A stretch of 44,090 nucleotides of DNA. Origin: Desulfotignum sp. GTDB taxonomy: Bacteria > Desulfobacterota > Desulfobacteria > Desulfobacterales > Desulfobacteraceae. The position numbers and the translations under genes were made by a program. The notes under the pieces were generated by a model. It ran no database searches and was not told the DNA's origin. It saw only the letters and a program-made list of their open reading frames with translations. The first letter of the stretch is position 1. Each line of letters starts with the position of its first letter. The stretch spans positions 1 to 44,090 of the forward strand of contig JAABSB010000007.1 of assembly GCA_011390615.1 (NCBI GenBank). Direction: 5' to 3'. Positions 12,117-44,090 of this stretch are shown piece by piece.

Positions 12117-12434
12117 ATGATTGAACTGACAGATCCTGCCAAAGTGCAGATTGATGACTATTTCCAGGGGAAAGAACCCACCCCTATCCGGATTTTTCTC
12201 AATTCCGGCGGCTGAGGGGGACCTTCCCTTGCCATGGCTCTGGATGAGCCTAAAAACACGGATGATGCCTTTGATGTGAAAGGACATAAGTTTGTTGTGG
12301 ACAAAGAGTTCATGCAAAAGGCTGAACGCATAAAGATTGATTTCACAGGCATGGGGTTTGCCCTGGATTCCAATATGGATCTTGGCGCGTCGGGCTGCGG
12401 CAGCTGCGGTTCGGGTGGCTCCTGCGGTGACTGA
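12117..12434 (+). CDS. HesB/IscA-like selenoprotein (UGA-encoded selenocysteine at codon 33)
   Basis: A 105-residue small soluble protein read through an in-frame TGA at 12213-12215. The N-terminal part (MIELTDPAKVQIDDYF) has the A-type carrier fold start, and the family's first conserved cysteine position, LNSGGU-GGPSLAMALDEP, is selenocysteine. The C-terminus is SGCGSCGSGGSCGD. The same frame continues to a TGA stop at 12432, and spacing, ribosome-binding site, promoter and terminator frame the whole reading frame as one gene. Sec-containing HesB-like proteins are known from Desulfobacterota. Their role, presumably redox or Fe-S chemistry, is not established. selB at 31-33 kb supplies the decoding factor. 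Confidence 0.9.
12236..12250 (+). promoter_or_regulatory. Bacterial SECIS hairpin of the HesB-like selenoprotein
   Basis: GGCTC (12236-12240), loop TGGAT (12241-12245) and GAGCC (12246-12250) form a perfect 5-bp stem with a 5-nt loop, 20 nt after the UGA. The apical loop starts 25 nt downstream of the UGA and has G in its second position, as required of bacterial SECIS elements bound by SelB. Confidence 0.75.
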
Positions 12435-12459
12435 TTCCCGGCCCTGGTTTTCTTGGAAA

Positions 12460-12492
12460 AAGGTGTCCTGAGGTAACAGGGCGCCTTTTTTT
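12460..12492 (+). terminator. Rho-independent terminator of the selenoprotein gene
   Basis: Arms 12460-12470 and 12477-12487 pair over 11 bp with two G-T wobbles around a 6-nt loop, followed by a run of T. It lies 26 bp after the stop of the selenoprotein gene and closes a monocistronic unit. Confidence 0.85.
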
Positions 12493-12612
12493 ATTCATGT
12501 GGCACATAAAGCATCCTGGTTATGGTTTCAGGTATTCTTGACCCTTGCTTATCTTCATGATAGCCTGATAATTATGTGCATACAAAAATTTTGTGATGGT
12601 TGGGGCCTTTTG

Positions 12613-13488
12613 ATGAAACGGTTTGCCTGTAAAAGTTTGACACCTCTTTTCATGGCCTGGATACTTTTTTTCATGGCAGGATGTGGTGACTCAACGACAC
12701 AAGACAAAGAAATGGTGCTTGGCAACTGGACCCTGCAAAGAAACCGTGCATATATCCTGTTGATCATCAATCCCAAGGGAACATGGCAATCTTCGGTGCG
12801 CATTGCAGATGCCACATCCAAGATCGTAGCCAATAAAGGTGATGCAGATGGTACCTGGCATCTGCAGGACGACCAATTTATTTTTACTGTCATGGAATCC
12901 ACCATTGACGATGTGTGGGCCAAGAATCATACCTATGTGTTTGACGTCGTGGAATTACATGATCACAGCATGCTGCTTCAGGAAGAAAACGGGCGGAAGG
13001 CGGAGTGGAAGAAAACAGGTGCCCGCAAACCCGGAGATAAAGATGAAAATACGGCAATGGTAATTCCCATGGCCCCCATAGCAGTGAATTTGAATAAAAT
13101 CAGTTCAGGCTCACCTGACCGGTATCTTTGCATCAGTATGGAACTGGCACTTAAAGAATTAATGCCTGGTCAGAAAATACCCCGGGTTCACCCCAGGGCC
13201 AAAGAAGCGGCTATTGTGTTTCTCAGTTCTCTTATACATAGCGATGTTGAGGATTTTGATAAGGTCAGGGACCAGAAATCCCGTCTGAAAGAGGTGCTCA
13301 ATCCTTATATGGACGGTGTTATTGAAGATATCAACATCAAGCGTGTCATTGTGTCCACCTCCATGGAAAAGGTGGAGGAGTTTTTCATTGAGCATACTAT
13401 TGGTGCCGAAGAAAAAAACAGCCCTGGTAACAATGAAAGAGAAACAAAACAGCAGGATAGCGCATCTGAGGATGATCAGCAAACCTGA
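12613..13488 (+). CDS. Lipoprotein with FliL-like C-terminal domain
   Basis: A 291-residue protein. The start at 12613 places a proper lipoprotein signal at the N-terminus: KR, a hydrophobic helix, and lipobox LFFMAGC with the lipidated Cys near residue 21. Residues 30-130 form a beta-rich region (GNWTLQRN, then GTWHLQDDQFIFTV) like small lipocalin-type beta domains. The C-terminal half (RYLCISMELALKE, then AAIVFLSSL, then SRLKEVLNPYMDG and INIKRVIVSTSM) resembles the periplasmic domain of FliL. FliL proteins normally have a membrane helix, not a lipid anchor. No flagellar gene is near. The tail is very hydrophilic. It is not in an obvious operon. Confidence 0.6.
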   Translation: MKRFACKSLTPLFMAWILFFMAGCGDSTTQDKEMVLGNWTLQRNRAYILLIINPKGTWQSSVRIADATSKIVANKGDADGTWHLQDDQFIFTVMESTIDDVWAKNHTYVFDVVELHDHSMLLQEENGRKAEWKKTGARKPGDKDENTAMVIPMAPIAVNLNKISSGSPDRYLCISMELALKELMPGQKIPRVHPRAKEAAIVFLSSLIHSDVEDFDKVRDQKSRLKEVLNPYMDGVIEDINIKRVIVSTSMEKVEEFFIEHTIGAEEKNSPGNNERETKQQDSASEDDQQT

Positions 13489-30976: not shown

Positions 30977-32890
30977 TCAAAGCTTTCGGCGCAGCTGACG
31001 CAAGTCCCCCACCCGGATGGTCAGGTTGATGGAATCAAAGTATTCAATGAGGGGGATGACATATTTTCTGGAAATTCCTGTCATATCCTTGAATTCCGGG
31101 GTGGTGATTTTTTCGTTTTTTTTGAGAAAATCCACAAGGTCGTTTTCCAGCCGGGCAATGGCATCTGCATCAAAAAACAGGTCATCTTTTGTCTTGATGA
31201 TCTGTTTTTCATCAATGAGCATCTGCAGCACATCTTTTGCCGTATTTTTGTCCAGGCCCAGATCCTGGCACACTGTTCGAAAAAAAGGCGGGGTCAGGCC
31301 TGCGATCCGATAAATCTGTATGATGTTTTGTTTTATTTCATGCTGGTCCACCTGCAAAGCCACCTCAAATCCTGTAAGTTTCACCAGGTTTTTGTCCAGC
31401 ACCACGGTGTTTTCCTTGTCAAGCCGTGAAAACAGGATATTGAAGAACTTAGGGTCTTTTATGTACTTGAACTTGGATTTGAGTTCCTGGGTGGGCATGC
31501 CCTCTTTTAGGGGATTGGCTTCATGGTAGTGCTGGATTTTTTCTAAGACTTTTGTTTTAAAATCAGTGAAAAATGCACCGCTGACATAGATTTGTCTTTC
31601 CTTGTCCGTCTGGATGATTTCCTGCTGGGCCAGCATTTTCTGCAGGGTTGCGGCCAATTTTTTATCAGTTATGTTTGTCATGATCCGCAGATCATTGAAA
31701 CTGAGTCCTTTAAAGCCTTTCAAAGACAGGAAAAATAAAATGGTCTGTTGCATATCCTCTGCTGCCAAGGCGTTAAGGCCCTGGATCACAGGTGCATCCA
31801 GGTGTTTGTGCTTCTGGGACACCGGGTTGAGAATGGCCCCGCCCCCGATGGTTCTCACCGGTGAATAGCTTCTGACAACATACCGGTCATCTTTTATACA
31901 GCACACCGGTGATTCCAGGCGGAACTGGACCAGGGCATCCTCTCCGGGCAGCAGTTCTTCTCTGTCCAGAAGCACCATATATCCCAGTATTTCACTGGTC
32001 CCGGAATGAAAACGGACACGGGTACGTGCTTTGGCCGGCCGGGTGTTGGATTTTAAAAAATGGAATCCAGCATCCACCATATAACTTTCAATGAGGGTGC
32101 CAGGTGTGGAAAGAATGTCCCCCCGGTTTACAGATTCCTTGTCCAGGCCCTGGAAATTGATGGCGGTGCGGGTACCTGGCCCGGCCTCTTCCACACTGCT
32201 GGAATGCACCTGGATGCCCCGCACCCGGGAGACAATTTTTTTGGGATAGACCATGATATCTTCTCCCACCCGGATACTGCCCGAGGCCAGGGTCCCGGTT
32301 ATCACCGTGCCGAAACCTTTCATGCTGAACACCCGGTCCACCGGCAGCCGGAATATGGAGGAAAATTTTCGTTCCGGCAGGTTGCTGCAGATCTTCTCAA
32401 GGGCTGCTACAAATTGTTCCAGACCCTGGCCTGTGACCGAAGATACCGGAATAACAGGCTTGTCCTCCAGAAATGTGCCCTGGACAAAATCATGGATATC
32501 TTCCATGGCCAGTTCCAGCAGGTCCTCATCCACCATATCGGTCTTGGTCAGGGCGATCAGGCCATTTTCAATGCCCATGAGGTTGCAGATTTCCATGTGC
32601 TCCCGGGTCTGGGGCATGACCCCTTCGTCCGCTGCAATGACCATGGTGACCACATCAATGCCTGAGGAGCCTGCCACCATGTTTTTAACAAATTTTTCAT
32701 GGCCCGGCATGTCCACAATGCCGATATGGGAACCCCCTGGCAGATCCAGAAAGGCAAATCCCAGTTCAATGGTAATGCCCCGTTGTTTTTCTTCCTTGAG
32801 ACGGTCGGTTTCAATGCCGGTTAGTGCCTTTACCAGGCTGGTTTTTCCATGGTCGATATGGCCGGCTGTGCCGAGAATGATGTTTTCCAA
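30977..32890 (-). CDS. selB: Selenocysteine-specific translation elongation factor SelB
   Basis: A 637-residue GTPase that brings Sec-tRNA to the ribosome at UGA codons. G1 is [17 protein letters not shown], switch I has [11 protein letters not shown]3 [11 protein letters not shown] and G4 TKTD. Domains 2 and 3 follow, and the last 260 residues form the tandem winged helices that bind the SECIS hairpin (for instance [13 protein letters not shown] and [23 protein letters not shown]). Full length. It implies selA, selD and tRNA-Sec elsewhere in the genome; none is seen here. The selenoprotein at 12.1 kb is a direct client. Confidence 0.96.
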
Positions 32891-37537: not shown

Positions 37538-37703
37538 CTGGTATTGGTTCCTTCCTCAATATCGGGTTAATTTGATTCGCCAGTACAGCCACATACCATC
37601 AAATACAGCAAATTTCAAAATCAAAATCCACATCCGGATGTTTTTTCCTGATCCCCGGCCCCCAGAGACCCTGCCGTTTCCATGGCTGTGGCCAATGACC
37701 ATA

Positions 37704-39128
37704 TTATTTTAAGGCAGATGCCAGAAACGCTTCTCCTTTAGCCATGATAGTGTCATGGTCCTCTGGAATGGCAAGGTGTTCCAGCAGGTCACATGTTTTG
37801 TCGTGCAGAATGCCGGCGGCGGTGGGGGCACCCTTGTTCCGCCATTTGTCGAGGGACAGAAACGGCCAGATCGTGCTTGAAAACTGGGATTCCCTGAAAT
37901 GCCGGCCGGTCAGGGATGATGACAGAAAATTTCCCCCCGGACCCAGTTTTTTAATGTCGGAAAACCCGATATGGTCATCTGCTATGGAAAATCCGGCAGC
38001 AAACTGTCTTGACTGGCAAATGAGATCATCGGAATAAACAACCAGTTCCGGAGAAAAAACCAGGGAATCAAAACTGCCCCCCACAAAAGGGACCATGCCC
38101 ACCGCCCCTGAGCAGCTTGTAAGGTGGTTGATGCACAGGGTGGTTGCGGCAAGCAGGTCTGCGCCCCAGCCGTTACCGCTGCCGGATGTGCCGCAGTGGG
38201 GAATATTGTAGAAGGCCATCATTTCAGCACAGGCCAGATTCAGCACCAGGGTGCGGGGTGAATAAAAACTGCCGGCATGTTTCATGTCAAAGGCGGCAGG
38301 CAGGCTGCCCAGGATGATGGGAGCCCCCGGCTTCACCAGCTGGCTGTACACCAGTCCTGCCAGCAGTTCAGCGGTGAGCAGGGCCAGGGTGCCCCCTGGG
38401 GTGATGGGACAGGTGGCACCGGACATGCCATAATTGGAAAAGATAAACGGCAGCCCTTTTTGAATGGACAGATCTATTTTCCGGGTGGTGTCCGCGTTCA
38501 GCACCAGCGGGGTGATGGGATTCACATAAGGGATCACAAAGGGATGATCAGACAGGTCCCTGGTAAGATGTTCACACAGGCCCAGGGCGGTTGCAAAGCA
38601 ATTCTGGTTGGATATGAGCATCACCAGGGGTTTTGTGGTATGGGCCAGCATTTCCAGGACCCCTAAGGTGTCTGCTGTTTCCGAAGAAAAATCCTGTATC
38701 ACCCCGGGGGTTGAAATAAAATCAAAGCTTTTCAAGGTATGGCCCAGGCCTGCGGCAAGGCCCATGTGGCGCCGCAAAAACGGCTGGATTTTGTTTGTGA
38801 ACGGGTCGTGATAATGCAGATTGGTAACACCGATGCCGAACACCGCATCCTGGTTCTCATCGCTTTTTAAAACAAAGCATGGCCGGCCCATGCGGTCAAA
38901 TATGGGTATGCTTGACGGGGCTGAATCGATTGCCCTTTGGACAAGGTCTTCCGGGATATGAACCACAGACGTGTGTGCGGATTTTCCCATGGCTTTTTCA
39001 AATACCTGCCGTGCCCCGGGATCATCTACCTTTATCCCGGTCTGTTGAAGAATTAAGAGTGCATCATGGTGGATTTTTTCAATCTGTTCTTTATTCATGA
39101 CCCGGGTTCTGGGTTTCAGATCAAACAT
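37704..39128 (-). CDS. Non-pyrrolysine MttB-family methyltransferase
   Basis: A 474-residue protein of the MttB superfamily with an uninterrupted frame. Where the pyrrolysine enzyme has GG-Pyl, this one reads PHCGTSGSGNGWGADLL, so it belongs to the non-Pyl branch. Characterised members demethylate glycine betaine, proline betaine, carnitine or related quaternary amines and pass the methyl to a corrinoid protein. The substrate here is not known. The ATG at 39128 has AAGGA 9 nt upstream and is preferred to that at 39158. It follows the GntR gene by 51 bp on the same strand. Confidence 0.88.
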   Translation of the reverse strand: MFDLKPRTRVMNKEQIEKIHHDALLILQQTGIKVDDPGARQVFEKAMGKSAHTSVVHIPEDLVQRAIDSAPSSIPIFDRMGRPCFVLKSDENQDAVFGIGVTNLHYHDPFTNKIQPFLRRHMGLAAGLGHTLKSFDFISTPGVIQDFSSETADTLGVLEMLAHTTKPLVMLISNQNCFATALGLCEHLTRDLSDHPFVIPYVNPITPLVLNADTTRKIDLSIQKGLPFIFSNYGMSGATCPITPGGTLALLTAELLAGLVYSQLVKPGAPIILGSLPAAFDMKHAGSFYSPRTLVLNLACAEMMAFYNIPHCGTSGSGNGWGADLLAATTLCINHLTSCSGAVGMVPFVGGSFDSLVFSPELVVYSDDLICQSRQFAAGFSIADDHIGFSDIKKLGPGGNFLSSSLTGRHFRESQFSSTIWPFLSLDKWRNKGAPTAAGILHDKTCDLLEHLAIPEDHDTIMAKGEAFLASALK

Positions 39129-39179
39129 ATGGTTTTTTTCCTTTACAGCAGGTTTCACAGGGGGGTGTTTCTTACGGGA

Positions 39180-39848
39180 TCAGACAGTTAAATAATCATC
39201 AGGGGTTATCCGGTTCACATCAATACCGCTCACCGTATTTGTAAGGTGCTGTTCCATGGCCTGTTTTGCCCGGGCACTGTCTTTTTGTTCCAGGGAAAAC
39301 ACAATTGTTTGATGTTCATCCGGAGAGGTGTTGTTGGCCTCCAGCAGCTGGTAAAACGGATCAAACAAAATCAGGTAGATGGTGGTTTTCTGGATCAGTT
39401 CCCTGATGTAGTGGACCAGAACAGGGTTGGCCGTTTTTTTTGCGATCAACAGGTGAATGGCATTATTGATCTCATAGTATCGGTCAAGTTCCCTGGCATT
39501 GAACACCTTTTTTTCCTTTTCTATCAGGTGGTGAAGGGTATGGAAATCCCCGGAATCAAGGTGGTGCAGCGCCAGTGAGACCGCCATCTTTTCCAGCTGG
39601 GCCCGCACCTGAAAACAGGCTTTGATCTCTTCAAGGGTGGGGTTGACCACCGACGCCCCCTTGTTGGGGGAAAAATCAGCCAGCCCTTCAAACACCAGCC
39701 GTTTGATGGCACCCTTTACCGTGGCCCGGCTCATGCCCAGACTGTTTGCCAGAGAGACCTCTTTGAGTTTGCTGCCTTTCTGGATATACCCTTTGCTGAT
39801 GGCAATCTTGATTTTATCGTAGGCCTGGTCTTCCAAACTGAGGGCCAT
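39180..39848 (-). CDS. GntR-family regulator with FCD ligand-binding domain
   Basis: A 222-residue transcription factor. The winged helix is at residues 8-70 (QAYDKIKIAISKGYI, then SLANSLGMSRATVKGAIKRL), followed by an all-helical FCD domain with likely metal-binding Asp/His positions (YYEINNAIHLLIAK). FadR/GntR proteins of this type sense organic acids or related catabolites. It lies between the MttB homologue and the ABC importer, so it is the obvious candidate to control both. The palindrome at 42710-42726 is a possible target. Confidence 0.88.
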   Translation of the reverse strand: MALSLEDQAYDKIKIAISKGYIQKGSKLKEVSLANSLGMSRATVKGAIKRLVFEGLADFSPNKGASVVNPTLEEIKACFQVRAQLEKMAVSLALHHLDSGDFHTLHHLIEKEKKVFNARELDRYYEINNAIHLLIAKKTANPVLVHYIRELIQKTTIYLILFDPFYQLLEANNTSPDEHQTIVFSLEQKDSARAKQAMEQHLTNTVSGIDVNRITPDDYLTV

Positions 39849-40021
39849 TCCTTCACCTCCTTATGTCATTTTCCATGGATGACCCGAGCCTGTCTTGGCC
39901 AATCGACTCGCAGTTTATCTTTCTGTTTTGCAATGGTTTTTTTTCAGTCATTGCCTGTAGATCGGTCGCCGGATATATCGCACAACCTAAAAAGCCATAG
40001 CCCGTAGGGGCGGTTCTGGAT

Positions 40022-40786
40022 TCAAAGAATATGGGCCAGAAACTGCCGGGTGCGCTCCTGTTCCGGGTTGTTGAAAATCTTTTCCGGCGGTCCCTGCTCC
40101 ACCCAGTTGCCGTTGTCCATGATCAGAATCCGGTCTGCCACATCCCGGGCAAAATGCAGCTCATGGGTAACGGCAATAATGGTCATCCCTTCCTTTGCCA
40201 GTCTTTCCATGACCTCCACCACCTCTCCCACCAGCTCCGGATCAAGTGCGGATGTGGGTTCGTCAAACAGCATCACCTTGGGTTTCATGGCCAGGCTCCT
40301 GGCAATGGCCACCCGCTGCTGCTGGCCCCCGGACAGACGGGAAGGGTGCTCATCGCGTTTTTCCGAAAGCCCGATCCACTGCAGCAGCTGTTCGGCATAG
40401 GAAACAGCGGCCTCTTTTTTCTGGTGCAAAACAGTGACCGGGCCTTCAATGATGTTTTCCAGCACCGTCATATGTGGAAACAGGTTGAATGCCTGAAAGC
40501 ACATGCCGGTGCGTTTGCGGATATCCCTGATGCGGCCGTTTCTCAGTTTGTCGTTTTCCCCGGCCTCAATAACGATACCATCCACCTCCACCGTGCCGGC
40601 AGTAGGTTCTTCCAGAAAATTGATGCACCGCAGCAATGTGCTTTTTCCGGAACCGGACGCCCCTAAGATGGCAACGGTTTCCCCTTTTTTCACCTCCAGG
40701 TCAATGCCGCACAGCACATGCATGTCCGGGTGAAACACCTTGTGGATATTGGATATTTTCACCATGAAAGAATCGTTTTCCATCAT
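40022..40786 (-). CDS. Polar amino acid-type ABC transporter ATPase
   Basis: A 254-residue ATPase. Walker A ILGASGSGKSTLLR, Q-loop MCFQAFNLFPHMT, signature LSGGQQQRVAIA, Walker B VMLFDEPTSALD and switch H VTHELHF place it with GlnQ/HisP. It energises the importer encoded upstream. It overlaps the permease gene by 4 bp (ATGA). The substrate is not set by the ATPase; the location between two MttB-type genes suggests a methylated amine or betaine rather than a common amino acid. Confidence 0.92.
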   Translation of the reverse strand: MMENDSFMVKISNIHKVFHPDMHVLCGIDLEVKKGETVAILGASGSGKSTLLRCINFLEEPTAGTVEVDGIVIEAGENDKLRNGRIRDIRKRTGMCFQAFNLFPHMTVLENIIEGPVTVLHQKKEAAVSYAEQLLQWIGLSEKRDEHPSRLSGGQQQRVAIARSLAMKPKVMLFDEPTSALDPELVGEVVEVMERLAKEGMTIIAVTHELHFARDVADRILIMDNGNWVEQGPPEKIFNNPEQERTRQFLAHIL

Positions 40787-41649
40787 CTGATACTCCTGTC
40801 GCCCCGGGCCATATGGGTTTCAAGTTTTTCCTGGAAATACTGGAGCATGATGCACATCATCCAGTAAATCAGGGCCACGGTGATGAGCATCTCCAGAGAC
40901 TGGAAATGCCGTCTGCCCATTTTAATGGCCCGGTAGCTCAGCTCCCACACCCCCATGAGAGACACCAGGGACGAGTCTTTGACCATGGCGATAAATTCAT
41001 TGGAAACCGGGGGGATGATGACCCGCAGGGCCTGGGGAAAGATGATGCGTTTCATGGTCTGGGTCCGGGTCATGCCCAGGGCGTTGGCCGCTTCGGTCTG
41101 GCCCGGATCGATGGACTGAATGCCGGCCCGGACCGTTTCGGTCATGTAGGCCCCGTAACACACCCCTAAGGCCAGGATACCAGCGGTCAGGGCCGGGAGG
41201 GTAAAATATGCCTGGATACCGGTGAACCCGTATCCTTCCAGGGCCTTTCCGATCTGGGGCAGGGCCAGGTACCACATGTACACCTGGACCAGAAGCGGCG
41301 TTCCCCGGATAAGGGATACATAGGAAGAGGCAATGCTGTTGAACACCGGGTTTTTGGACAGCCGCCCCAGGGCCCCGATAACGGCCAGAAAACAGGCCAG
41401 GGAGATGGCCATGAATGAGACAAAAAGGGTGTACCCCATGCCGGCAAATATAAAGGGCAGCTGGTTTTTCATGAACCTGAAATCCAGTTTCAGAAGGATG
41501 AGCACCGTTACCATGGCGATGGCCAGAATGATAAAGGATATGATCAGTTTGCGTTTGTAGGCGGCCCTGTCTGTTTCAATCTGTGTAAGGGTTTTTCTGG
41601 CCTCTGCAGGAATACCGCTGCCCTCAGAAAAATTTGTATCGGCCTTCAT
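40783..41649 (-). CDS. Polar amino acid-type ABC transporter permease
   Basis: A 288-residue inner-membrane permease of the HisM/GlnP family with an N-terminal cytoplasmic extension of about 35 residues before the first helix. VSLIRGTPLLVQVYMWY is the family motif, and the EAA loop reads EAANALGMTRTQTMKRIIFPQA. The ATG at 41649 (MKADTNFSEG) has AAGGAAA upstream; the ATG at 41694 lies in the terminator region and is rejected. Only one permease is seen, so it probably forms a homodimer. Confidence 0.9.
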   Translation of the reverse strand: MKADTNFSEGSGIPAEARKTLTQIETDRAAYKRKLIISFIILAIAMVTVLILLKLDFRFMKNQLPFIFAGMGYTLFVSFMAISLACFLAVIGALGRLSKNPVFNSIASSYVSLIRGTPLLVQVYMWYLALPQIGKALEGYGFTGIQAYFTLPALTAGILALGVCYGAYMTETVRAGIQSIDPGQTEAANALGMTRTQTMKRIIFPQALRVIIPPVSNEFIAMVKDSSLVSLMGVWELSYRAIKMGRRHFQSLEMLITVALIYWMMCIMLQYFQEKLETHMARGDRSIR

Positions 41650-41672
41650 TTTTTGGTTTCCTTGTCTGTGAT

Positions 41673-41746
41673 AAAAAAAGAAACAAAAATACACAAGCAG
41701 TTTCAGCCGGATACCATGATATGGTCTGGAAAGAAACTGCTTGTGT
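41673..41746 (-). terminator. Intra-operon intrinsic terminator after the binding-protein gene
   Basis: Arms 41691-41704 and 41733-41746 are a perfect 14-bp inverted repeat (ACACAAGCAGTTTC and its complement), with a small inner hairpin ACCAT/ATGGT. On the minus strand it is followed by a T-rich run (41690 down to 41673). It lies between the binding-protein and permease genes, so partial readthrough would give more binding protein than membrane subunits. Confidence 0.8.
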
Positions 41747-41755
41747 GTCTGGTTA

Positions 41756-42604
41756 TCAGAGCTTTGGAATCAGGTTGGTTTGGTAGAACTTTTCAGACAG
41801 GGCCACCAGGGTGCCGTCGGCATTCATGGACAGAATGATTTCATTTAGTTTGTCCACCAGGGTCTGGCTGTTGGCCCGGCTTTTGTCCAGCGCAAAACTC
41901 AACGGCTCGTAATAGGGGGGATCTCCCAGCATTTTGATGGGGCAGCCGTTTTTGCATCCGGAACTTATGGCTTCGGCAAGGGTCTGCCGGGAGGTGAACA
42001 CGGCATCCAGCCGCGCGCCGTCGCCAAGGGTCAGGTCTTCGATGTGGTTGGCATCGGTGGGATAGGTCACCAGGTCGGCTTCCCAGTCCTGAAACACAAT
42101 CTTTACATCTTCGATGGACAGATCTTTCTGCAGATATCTTTCATTGGTGGTTTCACTGGCAACACCGATTTTTTTGCCGGCCAGGTCTGCCAGGGTTTTG
42201 ATGGAAGTGTTGTTTTTATGCACGGCAAACTGGGCAGGAGAGCTGTAATAGGGCAGGGTGAACAGCAGCGCTTTTTTTCTTTCCTTGGTGGGGGTCATGG
42301 ACCCGATGGAGATATCCCATCTTTTTCCCCATTTGCCGGCGGTGATCAGGTCCCAGTCCGGTGTGACAAATTTGACATCCACACCCAGTCTTTTGGCCAC
42401 TTCTTTGGCCACACTGATGTCAAACCCTTCCAACTCGCCTTTTTCATTCAAAAAACTCTGGGGGGCATAATTGGCATCAGTGGATACCACAATGGTCCCT
42501 GCTGCCATAATTTCTTCAAGCACAGACTGCCCGGCAAAAGATCCTGCAATAAAAAAAAGGCAGGTGGATAAGATCGCTGCAAAGGTCCAAGACAATTTTT
42601 TCAT
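41756..42604 (-). CDS. Family 3 solute-binding protein of the ABC importer
   Basis: A 282-residue periplasmic binding protein. The ATG at 42604 gives a signal peptide (KKLSWTFAAILSTCLFFIAG, cleavage probably after SFA) and has GGAGG 7 nt upstream. TIVVSTDANYAPQSFLNEKGELEGFDISVAKEV, split over strands, is the family 3 signature, and GKKIGVASETTNERYLQ the second-lobe motif. It captures a small polar or quaternary amine; the ligand cannot be named from sequence. First gene of the importer operon, divergent from the pyrrolysine mttB. Confidence 0.92.
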   Translation of the reverse strand: MKKLSWTFAAILSTCLFFIAGSFAGQSVLEEIMAAGTIVVSTDANYAPQSFLNEKGELEGFDISVAKEVAKRLGVDVKFVTPDWDLITAGKWGKRWDISIGSMTPTKERKKALLFTLPYYSSPAQFAVHKNNTSIKTLADLAGKKIGVASETTNERYLQKDLSIEDVKIVFQDWEADLVTYPTDANHIEDLTLGDGARLDAVFTSRQTLAEAISSGCKNGCPIKMLGDPPYYEPLSFALDKSRANSQTLVDKLNEIILSMNADGTLVALSEKFYQTNLIPKL

Positions 42605-42709
42605 GGTAAACCTCCTGTTGGTTATTATTTCCGGAAGCGGCATGCCACCGGTAACTTACGCGAACATTACTGGTCTTGTCTGTTTGGCCTTGTCTCTGGT
42701 GTCATCCAT

Positions 42710-42726
42710 AAATTGTTGAACAATTT
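42710..42726. promoter_or_regulatory. 17-bp perfect palindrome in the importer/mttB divergent region
   Basis: AAATTGTT-G-AACAATTT reads the same on both strands over 17 bp. It lies between the divergent binding-protein and mttB genes, 106 bp and 163 bp from their starts. Its length and symmetry fit a dimeric regulator, with the nearby GntR/FCD protein the first candidate. The regulator is an inference. Confidence 0.55.
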
Positions 42727-42735
42727 TTGATTGAC

Positions 42736-42751
42736 AAACCTATAAAGGTTT
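42736..42751. promoter_or_regulatory. Second dyad next to a TTGACA box upstream of mttB
   Basis: AAACCT (42736-42741), four bases, AGGTTT (42746-42751) form a perfect 6-bp dyad directly after TTGACA (42731-42736). If TTGACA is the mttB -35 box, the dyad sits in the spacer and could hold a repressor or activator. The matching -10 (TAGGGA at 42754) is poor. Confidence 0.35.
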
Positions 42752-42888
42752 TGTAGGGATGTCAAGTGGAAATATCGCCCCGGCAGGTGCTTTGGGCGGT
42801 TTTTTGTGAAACGCAGGCTGACACCCCTTTTCATGACTGTATGTATGGGGGGATAATTGATGAAACATGGTGGCGAGGTGGAAATAAG

Positions 42889-44090
42889 ATGAAACGCAAT
42901 TTTCACGCAGGAGGGCTGCGCAGCGCCGGACTGAGTCTCAATATCCTGACCGATGACGAACTGGATGAGATTCACTACGGCACCCTTGAAGTGCTCAATG
43001 AAACAGGGGTATTTGTGGAAGATGCTGCTGCCCTGGATTGTTTTGAAAACGGGGGGGCCGTGGTTGACCGGGATACAAAAAATGTACGGATCCCCCCCCA
43101 TGTGGTGGAGGATGCCATACGGTCGGCCCCTGCCAAGGTGGTTCTGTATGGCCGCAATCCAGCCCATGACATTGTTCTGGAAAGCACCCGGGTGCATTTT
43201 ACCAATTTCAGCGAGGGGGTGATGGTAAATGATCCCTATACCGGAGAAAACAGGGCCCCCGTAAAACAGGACCTGATCGATTCTGCCAGGGTCATCGATT
43301 ATCTGGATGAGATCGATTTCTGTGAAAAAGCCCTGGGGGCCCATGACGTGGACCAGCGCACCGTGCCTTTGCACAATGCGGAAGCCTATTTGACCCATAC
43401 ATCCAAGCACTGCGCATTCGGACCGGGCAACGGCGGGTTTCTGGAAAAGATCATTGCAATGGCCCAGGCCATTGCCGGTGGGGCCGCGGCATTTGCCAGA
43501 CGGCCCATCGTGTCCTTTACCACCTGTCCGGTAAGCCCTTTGAAACTGATCGCTGACTGCTGCGACATCATCATGACATCGGCAAAAAACAATGTGGTGT
43601 GCAACATCCTGTCCATGGCCATGGCCGGCGGCACGGCCCCGGTCACCCTGGCCGGGACTCTTGTGAACCACAATGCCGAGGTGCTGTCCGGGATCACCCT
43701 GGCACAGCTGACCCGGAAAGGCACGCCCGTGATTTACGGCAGCTCCACCACGGCCATGGACCTGAAACTGGCATCCGCCAGTGTGGGCACCCCGGAATGT
43801 GCCGTGATATCCGGGGCCGTGGCCCGCCTTGCCAGGTACTATGCCCTGCCCAGCTATGTGGCGGGCGGGTAGGGCGACAGCAAAATATCCGATGTCCAGA
43901 CTGGCCATGAAAAGACACTCACCGGACTGATTCCCGCATTGGCAGGTGCCAATATGATTTACGGTCCGGGGATGCTTGAAAGCGGCATTACTTTTGATTT
44001 TGGCCAGCTGGTGCTTGACTGTGAGTTTGTGCGTATGATCAAACATACCATTCAGGGCATTCCCGTGAATGATGACACACTTGCCATCGA
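42889..44090 (+). CDS. mttB: Trimethylamine methyltransferase MttB with amber-encoded pyrrolysine (3' end cut)
   Basis: The frame opens at ATG 42889 (AGGTGG ribosome-binding site), runs 327 codons to TAG at 43870-43872, and continues open to the window end with strong MttB similarity on both sides. Before the codon: [20 protein letters not shown] at the N-terminus and ALPSYVAGG. After it: [16 protein letters not shown], then [17 protein letters not shown]. Codon 328 matches the Pyl334 position of Methanosarcina MttB. The enzyme moves a methyl from trimethylamine to a corrinoid protein, with pyrrolysine in the active site. The corrinoid protein and pyl genes are not in the window. The last 72 codons seen fit the family C-terminal part. 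Confidence 0.93.
43870..43872 (+). other. In-frame UAG decoded as pyrrolysine (codon 328 of mttB)
   Basis: GGC GGG TAG GGC GAC AGC gives Gly-Gly-Pyl-Gly-Asp-Ser. The residues around the codon (GG before, GDSK after) are the conserved pyrrolysine site of MttB. No sense codon fits the family here, and 72 codons of conserved sequence follow. Confidence 0.9.

Follow-up and report, generated by a model that had tools for sequence, protein, structure and literature searches.

The window analysed here, a stretch of 44,090 nucleotides, is the entire contig C190 of a 3.02-Mb genome that is split into 222 contigs and judged to be 83% complete. At its right end lies mttB, which starts with the ATG at 42889 and is open to the contig end at 44090 except for a TAG at codon 328, with 72 sense codons lying 3' of this TAG. 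The genes and features of this region are as follows.

42889..44090, plus strand: mttB, Pyl-dependent trimethylamine:corrinoid methyltransferase, codons 1-400; the 3' end is cut by the contig end and continues on contig C173
43870..43872, plus strand: predicted pyrrolysine codon, the in-frame TAG at codon 328 of mttB
41756..42643, minus strand: ABC solute-binding protein (SBP_bac_3), divergent from mttB; part of the stretch missing at this locus in Pyl-less sister genomes
40783..41694, minus strand: ABC transporter permease (BPD_transp_1)
40022..40786, minus strand: ABC transporter ATPase
39180..39848, minus strand: GntR/FCD-family regulator
37704..39158, minus strand: MttB-superfamily homologue without TAG (TIGR02369, 203.8 bits; cut-off 525)

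Because the window comprises the whole contig, the last ~97 residues of MttB lie beyond it; they were found at the end of contig C173 (TIGR02369 positions 383-469). The homologue at 37704..39158 was not filed as a Pyl-MttB, given its score below the cut-off, and is by inference a betaine-type methyltransferase. About 10 kb from mttB, the window also carries selB, encoding the selenocysteine elongation factor (30977-32890, minus strand; 341.4 bits against an NCBIfam cut-off of 242.25), which makes a Sec system probable here too, matching the published relatives.

The earlier note had taken the host for a probable sulfate reducer. This view is supported at the level of the genus, in which 9 of 13 genomes have dsrA above cut-off, whereas none was found above cut-off in the host's own 83%-complete genome, whose incompleteness may account for the missing gene. 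In the same incomplete genome, the best corrinoid protein reaches 195.5 bits against the pyl_corrinoid model (TIGR02370, cut-off 215.3) and is encoded beside a non-Pyl homologue.

The in-frame TAG of mttB and the pyrrolysine genes

When read through the TAG, the 400-residue partial MttB scores 616.7 bits against TIGR02369 (trimeth_pyl, an equivalog model), exceeding the cut-off of 525 by 92 bits despite its truncation, which confirms the earlier claim that a UAG at codon 328 (43870-43872) lies inside one continuous MttB. The best structural relatives are the solved MttB structures 7xcm and 7xcl (343 bits over residues 2-400), and codon 328 aligns with their residue 334, the position named Pyl334 in passages of PMC9842639. 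The same passages describe Gly110 and Tyr364 of Methanosarcina barkeri MttB as fully conserved, Gly110 in 66 Pyl-MttBs, and stress the importance of Tyr364. The equivalent of Tyr364 is retained here as Y358, so that both the Pyl column and this tyrosine are shared with methanogen MttB (7xcl, 7xcm; M. barkeri, PMC9842639). Unlike in the M. barkeri enzyme, Gly110-Thr111 is replaced by Ser108-Glu109 (codons 108-109, window 43210-43215). The Ser-Glu pair is found in all 28 sequences of clade 1, defined as the mttB genes at ≥83% identity with the window's included, and the Gly110 position is occupied by glycine in two fetched paralogues of 58-59% identity.

Matches to MttB at E up to 1e-90 occur in 30 of 86 family genomes, the host's own included. 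Among the 59 MttB matches listed, 52 contain a TAG and the seven that do not are all only 43-44% identical. The TAG column was aligned for 30 of these 52, namely those fetched as loci, with the window among them, and the TAG stands in the identical column in 29/29 relatives (58-99.5% identical; best match per genome). The host genome holds eight further MttB homologues without TAG, seven of which were tried for the Pyl column; six gave a residue there (A, L, L, L, V, S). Codon-based comparison with 10 of the 29 relatives, two of which had saturated dS on one side, yielded Nei-Gojobori dN/dS values of 0.00-0.13 for codons 329-400 and 0.03-0.12 for codons 1-327 in the eight comparisons that were finite on both sides. 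The similarity to MttB reported 3' of the TAG is thus real, as 72 further codons are open and dN/dS there is as low as before the TAG. Since the column is the same in all 29 relatives and constraint is unchanged 3' of the TAG, a TAG by chance is excluded. Within the family, TAG-bearing MttB paralogues form several groups at 40-65% identity, and tandem pairs of a TAG mttB with a 43% identical copy without TAG were observed at G038:C35:71535-74375 (L125) and G037:C25:9367-12206 (L055).

The earlier note had proposed to look for pyl genes in the rest of the genome, and all of them were located on C173. On one strand, this contig carries the C-terminal end of mttB, a gene for an 821-aa DAO-GcvT flavoprotein, tRNA-Pyl(CUA), the split pylSn and pylSc, and between these two pylB, pylC and pylD. 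PylSn, PylB, PylC, PylD and PylSc each score above their curated cut-offs; among 14 control genomes, a single one passes a Pyl-protein cut-off, presumably Methanosarcina acetivorans. The tRNA-Pyl folds with a CUA anticodon, a 6-bp anticodon stem, 1 nt between acceptor and D stem, and a 3-nt variable loop, the last being a trait of tRNA-Pyl. An extra anticodon-stem pair and a shortened acceptor-D spacer are given as traits of this tRNA in the main text of PMC8318568. A search of the surrounding 401 bases matched no Rfam family at E up to 1.

The flavoprotein gene starts 19 nt past the mttB stop, and tRNA-Pyl begins 13 nt past the flavoprotein stop. The ends of C190 and C173 overlap by 16 nt with one mismatch, and the joined mttB depends on both contigs. 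The two contigs very probably adjoin, because in four genomes of the same genus (G068, G065, G070 and G072) a single contig holds the whole series from mttB through the flavoprotein gene, tRNA-Pyl, pylSn, pylB, pylC and pylD to pylSc, although the contig of G072 begins within mttB.

In the host genome, the TAG stop of pylB overlaps the start of pylC (ATGCGCATAG, L014 11144-11153, minus strand). TAG ends pylB in 5/5 genus genomes with a complete pylB, and tRNA-Pyl could therefore extend PylB by 24-80 residues. Autoregulation through this codon was considered and set aside as a remark, as in the host the overlap with the start of pylC dictates the TAG; elsewhere in the family, the best PylB-like matches of four genomes, some of them weak, end with TGA or TAA.

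With the TAG, its conservation, the selection 3' of it and all pyl parts present in the sequence, we infer with high confidence that UAG 328 is decoded as pyrrolysine by a complete bacterial system in the same operon-like cluster (mttB-flavoprotein-tRNA-Pyl-pylSn-pylB-pylC-pylD-pylSc, C190 plus C173), and that full-length MttB serves to demethylate trimethylamine for sulfate-coupled oxidation. The pyrrolysine ring of the full-length enzyme would take the methyl group from trimethylamine, the group would pass from MttB to a corrinoid protein and on to tetrahydrofolate, and the methyl on tetrahydrofolate would then be oxidised in coupling with sulfate reduction. A coenzyme M route, as in methanogens, is not expected here. 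The pyrrolysine reading of codon 328 put forward in the earlier note accordingly gains support from the Pyl-column alignment, the conserved TAG and the pyl genes of the genome.

Three other explanations of the gene were weighed. That mttB is decaying and its TAG arose by nonsense mutation or sequencing error agrees with the interruption by just one codon and with the cassette decay seen in related genomes; it is nevertheless in effect refuted by the TAG column shared by all 29 relatives, and the unchanged selection 3' of the TAG and the complete pyl set of the host leave it a negligible probability. A nonsense mutation or a frameshift was rejected on the conserved column and on this selection. 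It is also very improbable, if slightly less so, that UAG acts mainly as a stop, with a functional 327-residue form and read-through that is minor or dependent on growth conditions. TAG does end 10 of 71 mechanically picked ORFs of ≥150 aa, a set that may include mttB itself, and some termination at codon 328 is likely for this reason; against a functional short form, the Tyr364 equivalent sits 3' of the TAG, where constraint equals that on the 5' side, and the TIM barrel, which extends to residue 395 in M. barkeri MttB according to passages of PMC9842639, would be cut short. Finally, a methylamine other than trimethylamine is an unlikely substrate: in its favour are the Ser-Glu replacement of the Gly-Thr pair adjoining the pyrrolysine and the TAG-bearing paralogue groups of the family, which suggest that substrates have diverged, whereas the partial protein clears the equivalog cut-off by 92 bits, and in all 23 clade-1 cases that could be resolved the next gene is mtbB or one of demethylase type.

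The flavoprotein gene in the mtbB position

The gene following mttB was recorded for 51 of the 59 mttB entries, leaving out the seven without TAG and one TAG copy of 40% identity (G078:C156), which by coordinates is followed by mtbB 345 nt later. For the flavoprotein, 49 of 102 entries were used, those below 40% identity and five partial ones being set aside. Within clade 1, five genes at contig ends were excluded (the window's own and four with fetched loci shorter than an uncut contig would give), which leaves 23 resolvable cases. The flavoprotein gene follows in 21 of these, 273-359 nt past the matched stretch and in two pieces in G019, and the remaining two, G057 and G002, have mtbB there instead (297 and 377 nt). 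Outside clade 1, 18 of the 23 mttB genes used (4/6 at 61-65% identity, 14/17 below) have neither gene within 1 kb or are not resolved; two TAG-mttB paralogues at 63-65% identity are followed by mtbB, and three further ones have a more distant flavoprotein gene (45%) directly upstream. Across whole genomes, mtbB is absent from all 13 genomes of the genus and occurs in 9 of the family's 86, and mtmB is likewise found in 0/13 and 4/86. The clade-A flavoprotein also occurs in five of the nine mtbB genomes (G031, G038, G055, G061 and G078), so that the two genes are not exclusive genome-wide.

The flavoprotein is composed of DAO, FAO_M and GcvT domains, and its nearest solved structures are dimethylglycine dehydrogenase/oxidase (4pab, 5l46, 1pj5), matched over the full length at E values of 3e-131 to 4.5e-104. 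It resembles these enzymes in its complete DAO and GcvT parts and in keeping the equivalents of DMGO His225, Tyr259 and Asp552 and the WHAAGL histidine, the roles of which we take to be those of a flavin-site histidine and a folate-site aspartate; it differs from them in being tied to a Pyl-mttB and in occupying the mtbB slot. In 13 clade-B entries, the position of the WHAAGL histidine holds alanine. A second gene of this type in the host genome, 33% identical, lies on C168 beside two non-TAG MttB homologues.

Relatives of the flavoprotein were taken as the best 80 of at least 506, with 11 of the 80 loci mapped and 21 of the 80 placed in the alignment and tree. Among these best 80, homologues of 52-70% identity from other phyla or classes stand in seven mapped loci without an mttB homologue nearby, which means that the flavoprotein need not be specific for dimethylamine; several of these loci come from genera known to be aerobic. 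Two Chloroflexota loci place a flavoprotein homologue near MttB-superfamily homologues of only 32-35% identity. NCBIfam scans of ten neighbouring proteins, nine taken from six of the loci lacking an mttB homologue and one from the Chloroflexota locus L161, revealed no common partner gene, nor did Pfam scans of five of these proteins.

Two readings of this enzyme compete. Because it fills the mtbB slot, and mtbB and mtmB are missing from all 13 genus genomes, the flavoprotein may demethylate dimethylamine onto tetrahydrofolate, thereby replacing the pyrrolysine enzyme MtbB, a role to which we lean slightly on genomic context. Alternatively, it could be an ordinary dimethylglycine/sarcosine dehydrogenase of the betaine branch, working with non-Pyl MttB homologues, whose place after mttB reflects shared C1-tetrahydrofolate chemistry. 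This is a possible, rather less probable explanation, and it accords with the identity of the best solved relatives, with the seven mapped loci of 52-70% homologues lacking an mttB neighbour and the two Chloroflexota loci, with the non-TAG MttB homologue 3.7 kb from mttB in the window, with the retention of the flavoprotein gene in Pyl-less sisters and with its co-occurrence with mtbB in five of nine family genomes. It is weakened by the host's second gene, which already sits with two non-TAG MttB homologues on C168, by the mttB-linked gene standing at the exact position of mtbB in G057 and G002, and by the lack of mtbB and mtmB in the genus.

Probable loss of the pyrrolysine cassette in sister genomes

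Of the 13 genus genomes, 7 have PylSc and 6 have PylB. Three sister genomes, G062 (98% complete), G063 (96%) and G073 (87%), have neither of these, nor an MttB match at E up to 1e-90. They align to the left flank of the window up to 37646 and again to C173 past the pyl genes; window 37646-44090 and pylSn-pylSc are missing at the locus, and the flavoprotein and tRNA region alone is left between. The tRNA-Pyl of G062 (L108 11864-11934) and G063 (L109 8977-9047) keeps its anticodon and has a mutated T stem and acceptor, no cloverleaf and no CCA, and in the relic that follows the flavoprotein gene of G073 (L110) the anticodon is changed as well. In G062, MazE- and MazF-like genes lie directly after the relic. 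As these sisters keep the flavoprotein beside a decayed tRNA-Pyl, the cassette was probably lost in them.

Between the Pyl-less species and the host genome, flavoprotein dS is 0.27-0.37, compared with 0.60 to the Pyl-positive G070. The flanking genes of the Pyl-less species give 0.58-1.36 versus the host for six of seven genes, the seventh giving 0.36-0.62 over an alignment of just 33-76 codons. The flavoprotein tree places the Pyl-less species inside the genus clade, with an inner order that is not resolved. A recent exchange of the cassette followed by its loss would fit these sisters, and it is less likely that they gained only the flavoprotein, since the tRNA relic came along.

In G069, whose MttB is 99.5% identical, TAG-mttB, tRNA-Pyl, pylSn, pylD and pylSc are kept, with pylB almost wholly gone and pylC gutted (L048, about 12300-12760), which may reflect real decay or an assembly fault. 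Three fragmented genomes give a mixed picture: G064 combines a flavoprotein gene whose upstream sequence is that of the Pyl-less species with a PylSc on a separate contig; in G067, pieces of the flavoprotein are present with no tRNA relic after them; and in G066 PylB is partial and PylSc missing.

Altogether, a model can be put forward tentatively, at somewhat less than even confidence, in which the genus needs only one pyrrolysine protein for trimethylamine: MttB would yield dimethylamine, and the flavin/tetrahydrofolate enzyme in the mtbB slot would demethylate it. If a single such protein suffices, pyrrolysine code expansion would become a discrete, losable cassette, here of ~14.7 kb at a fixed site, and the sisters would display its loss, ranging from one genome stripped of pylB and most of pylC to others in which the flavoprotein gene stands bare but for a decayed tRNA-Pyl and, in one checked case, a MazEF-type module beside it.

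Relation to known systems and biological meaning

The window's Pyl-MttB is a further member of a published kind of system. Kivenson et al. (2021; PMC8318568) describe Pyl-MttB in the main text for sulfate-reducing MAGs of Deltaproteobacteria-bbl related to Desulfobacula, and the earlier note thus overrated its novelty. As described there, those MAGs share with the host genome a full Pyl and Sec machinery and sulfate reduction, and likewise have a lysine/arginine/ornithine-type binding protein, permease and ABC genes, a regulator and a non-Pyl betaine-type methyltransferase by mttB; their in-frame amber codon is at position 327, compared with 328 here. The main text of PMC8318568, whose supplementary tables list the neighbourhood, contains no mention that we could find of a DAO-GcvT gene following mttB, of its swap with mtbB or of a fossil tRNA-Pyl. 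In the open-access text searched, nothing links pyrrolysine or trimethylamine methyltransferase to dimethylglycine/sarcosine dehydrogenase; PMC8547467 deals with betaine, its consulted passages using pyrrolysine solely in the word "nonpyrrolysine", and the papers found for pyrrolysine loss concern archaea. The swap and the loss of the cassette with a fossil tRNA were accordingly not found in print within the open-access literature, supplements aside, and it is on these two features that the interest of the locus centres.

An apparently truncated gene becomes a probable working trimethylamine enzyme, and a further lineage of sulfate reducers may compete with methanogens for this substrate. The swap after mttB suggests, in testable form, how such bacteria could use dimethylamine without MtbB. 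Furthermore, the sister genomes provide a view of how genetic code expansion is lost and of the order in which its parts may go.
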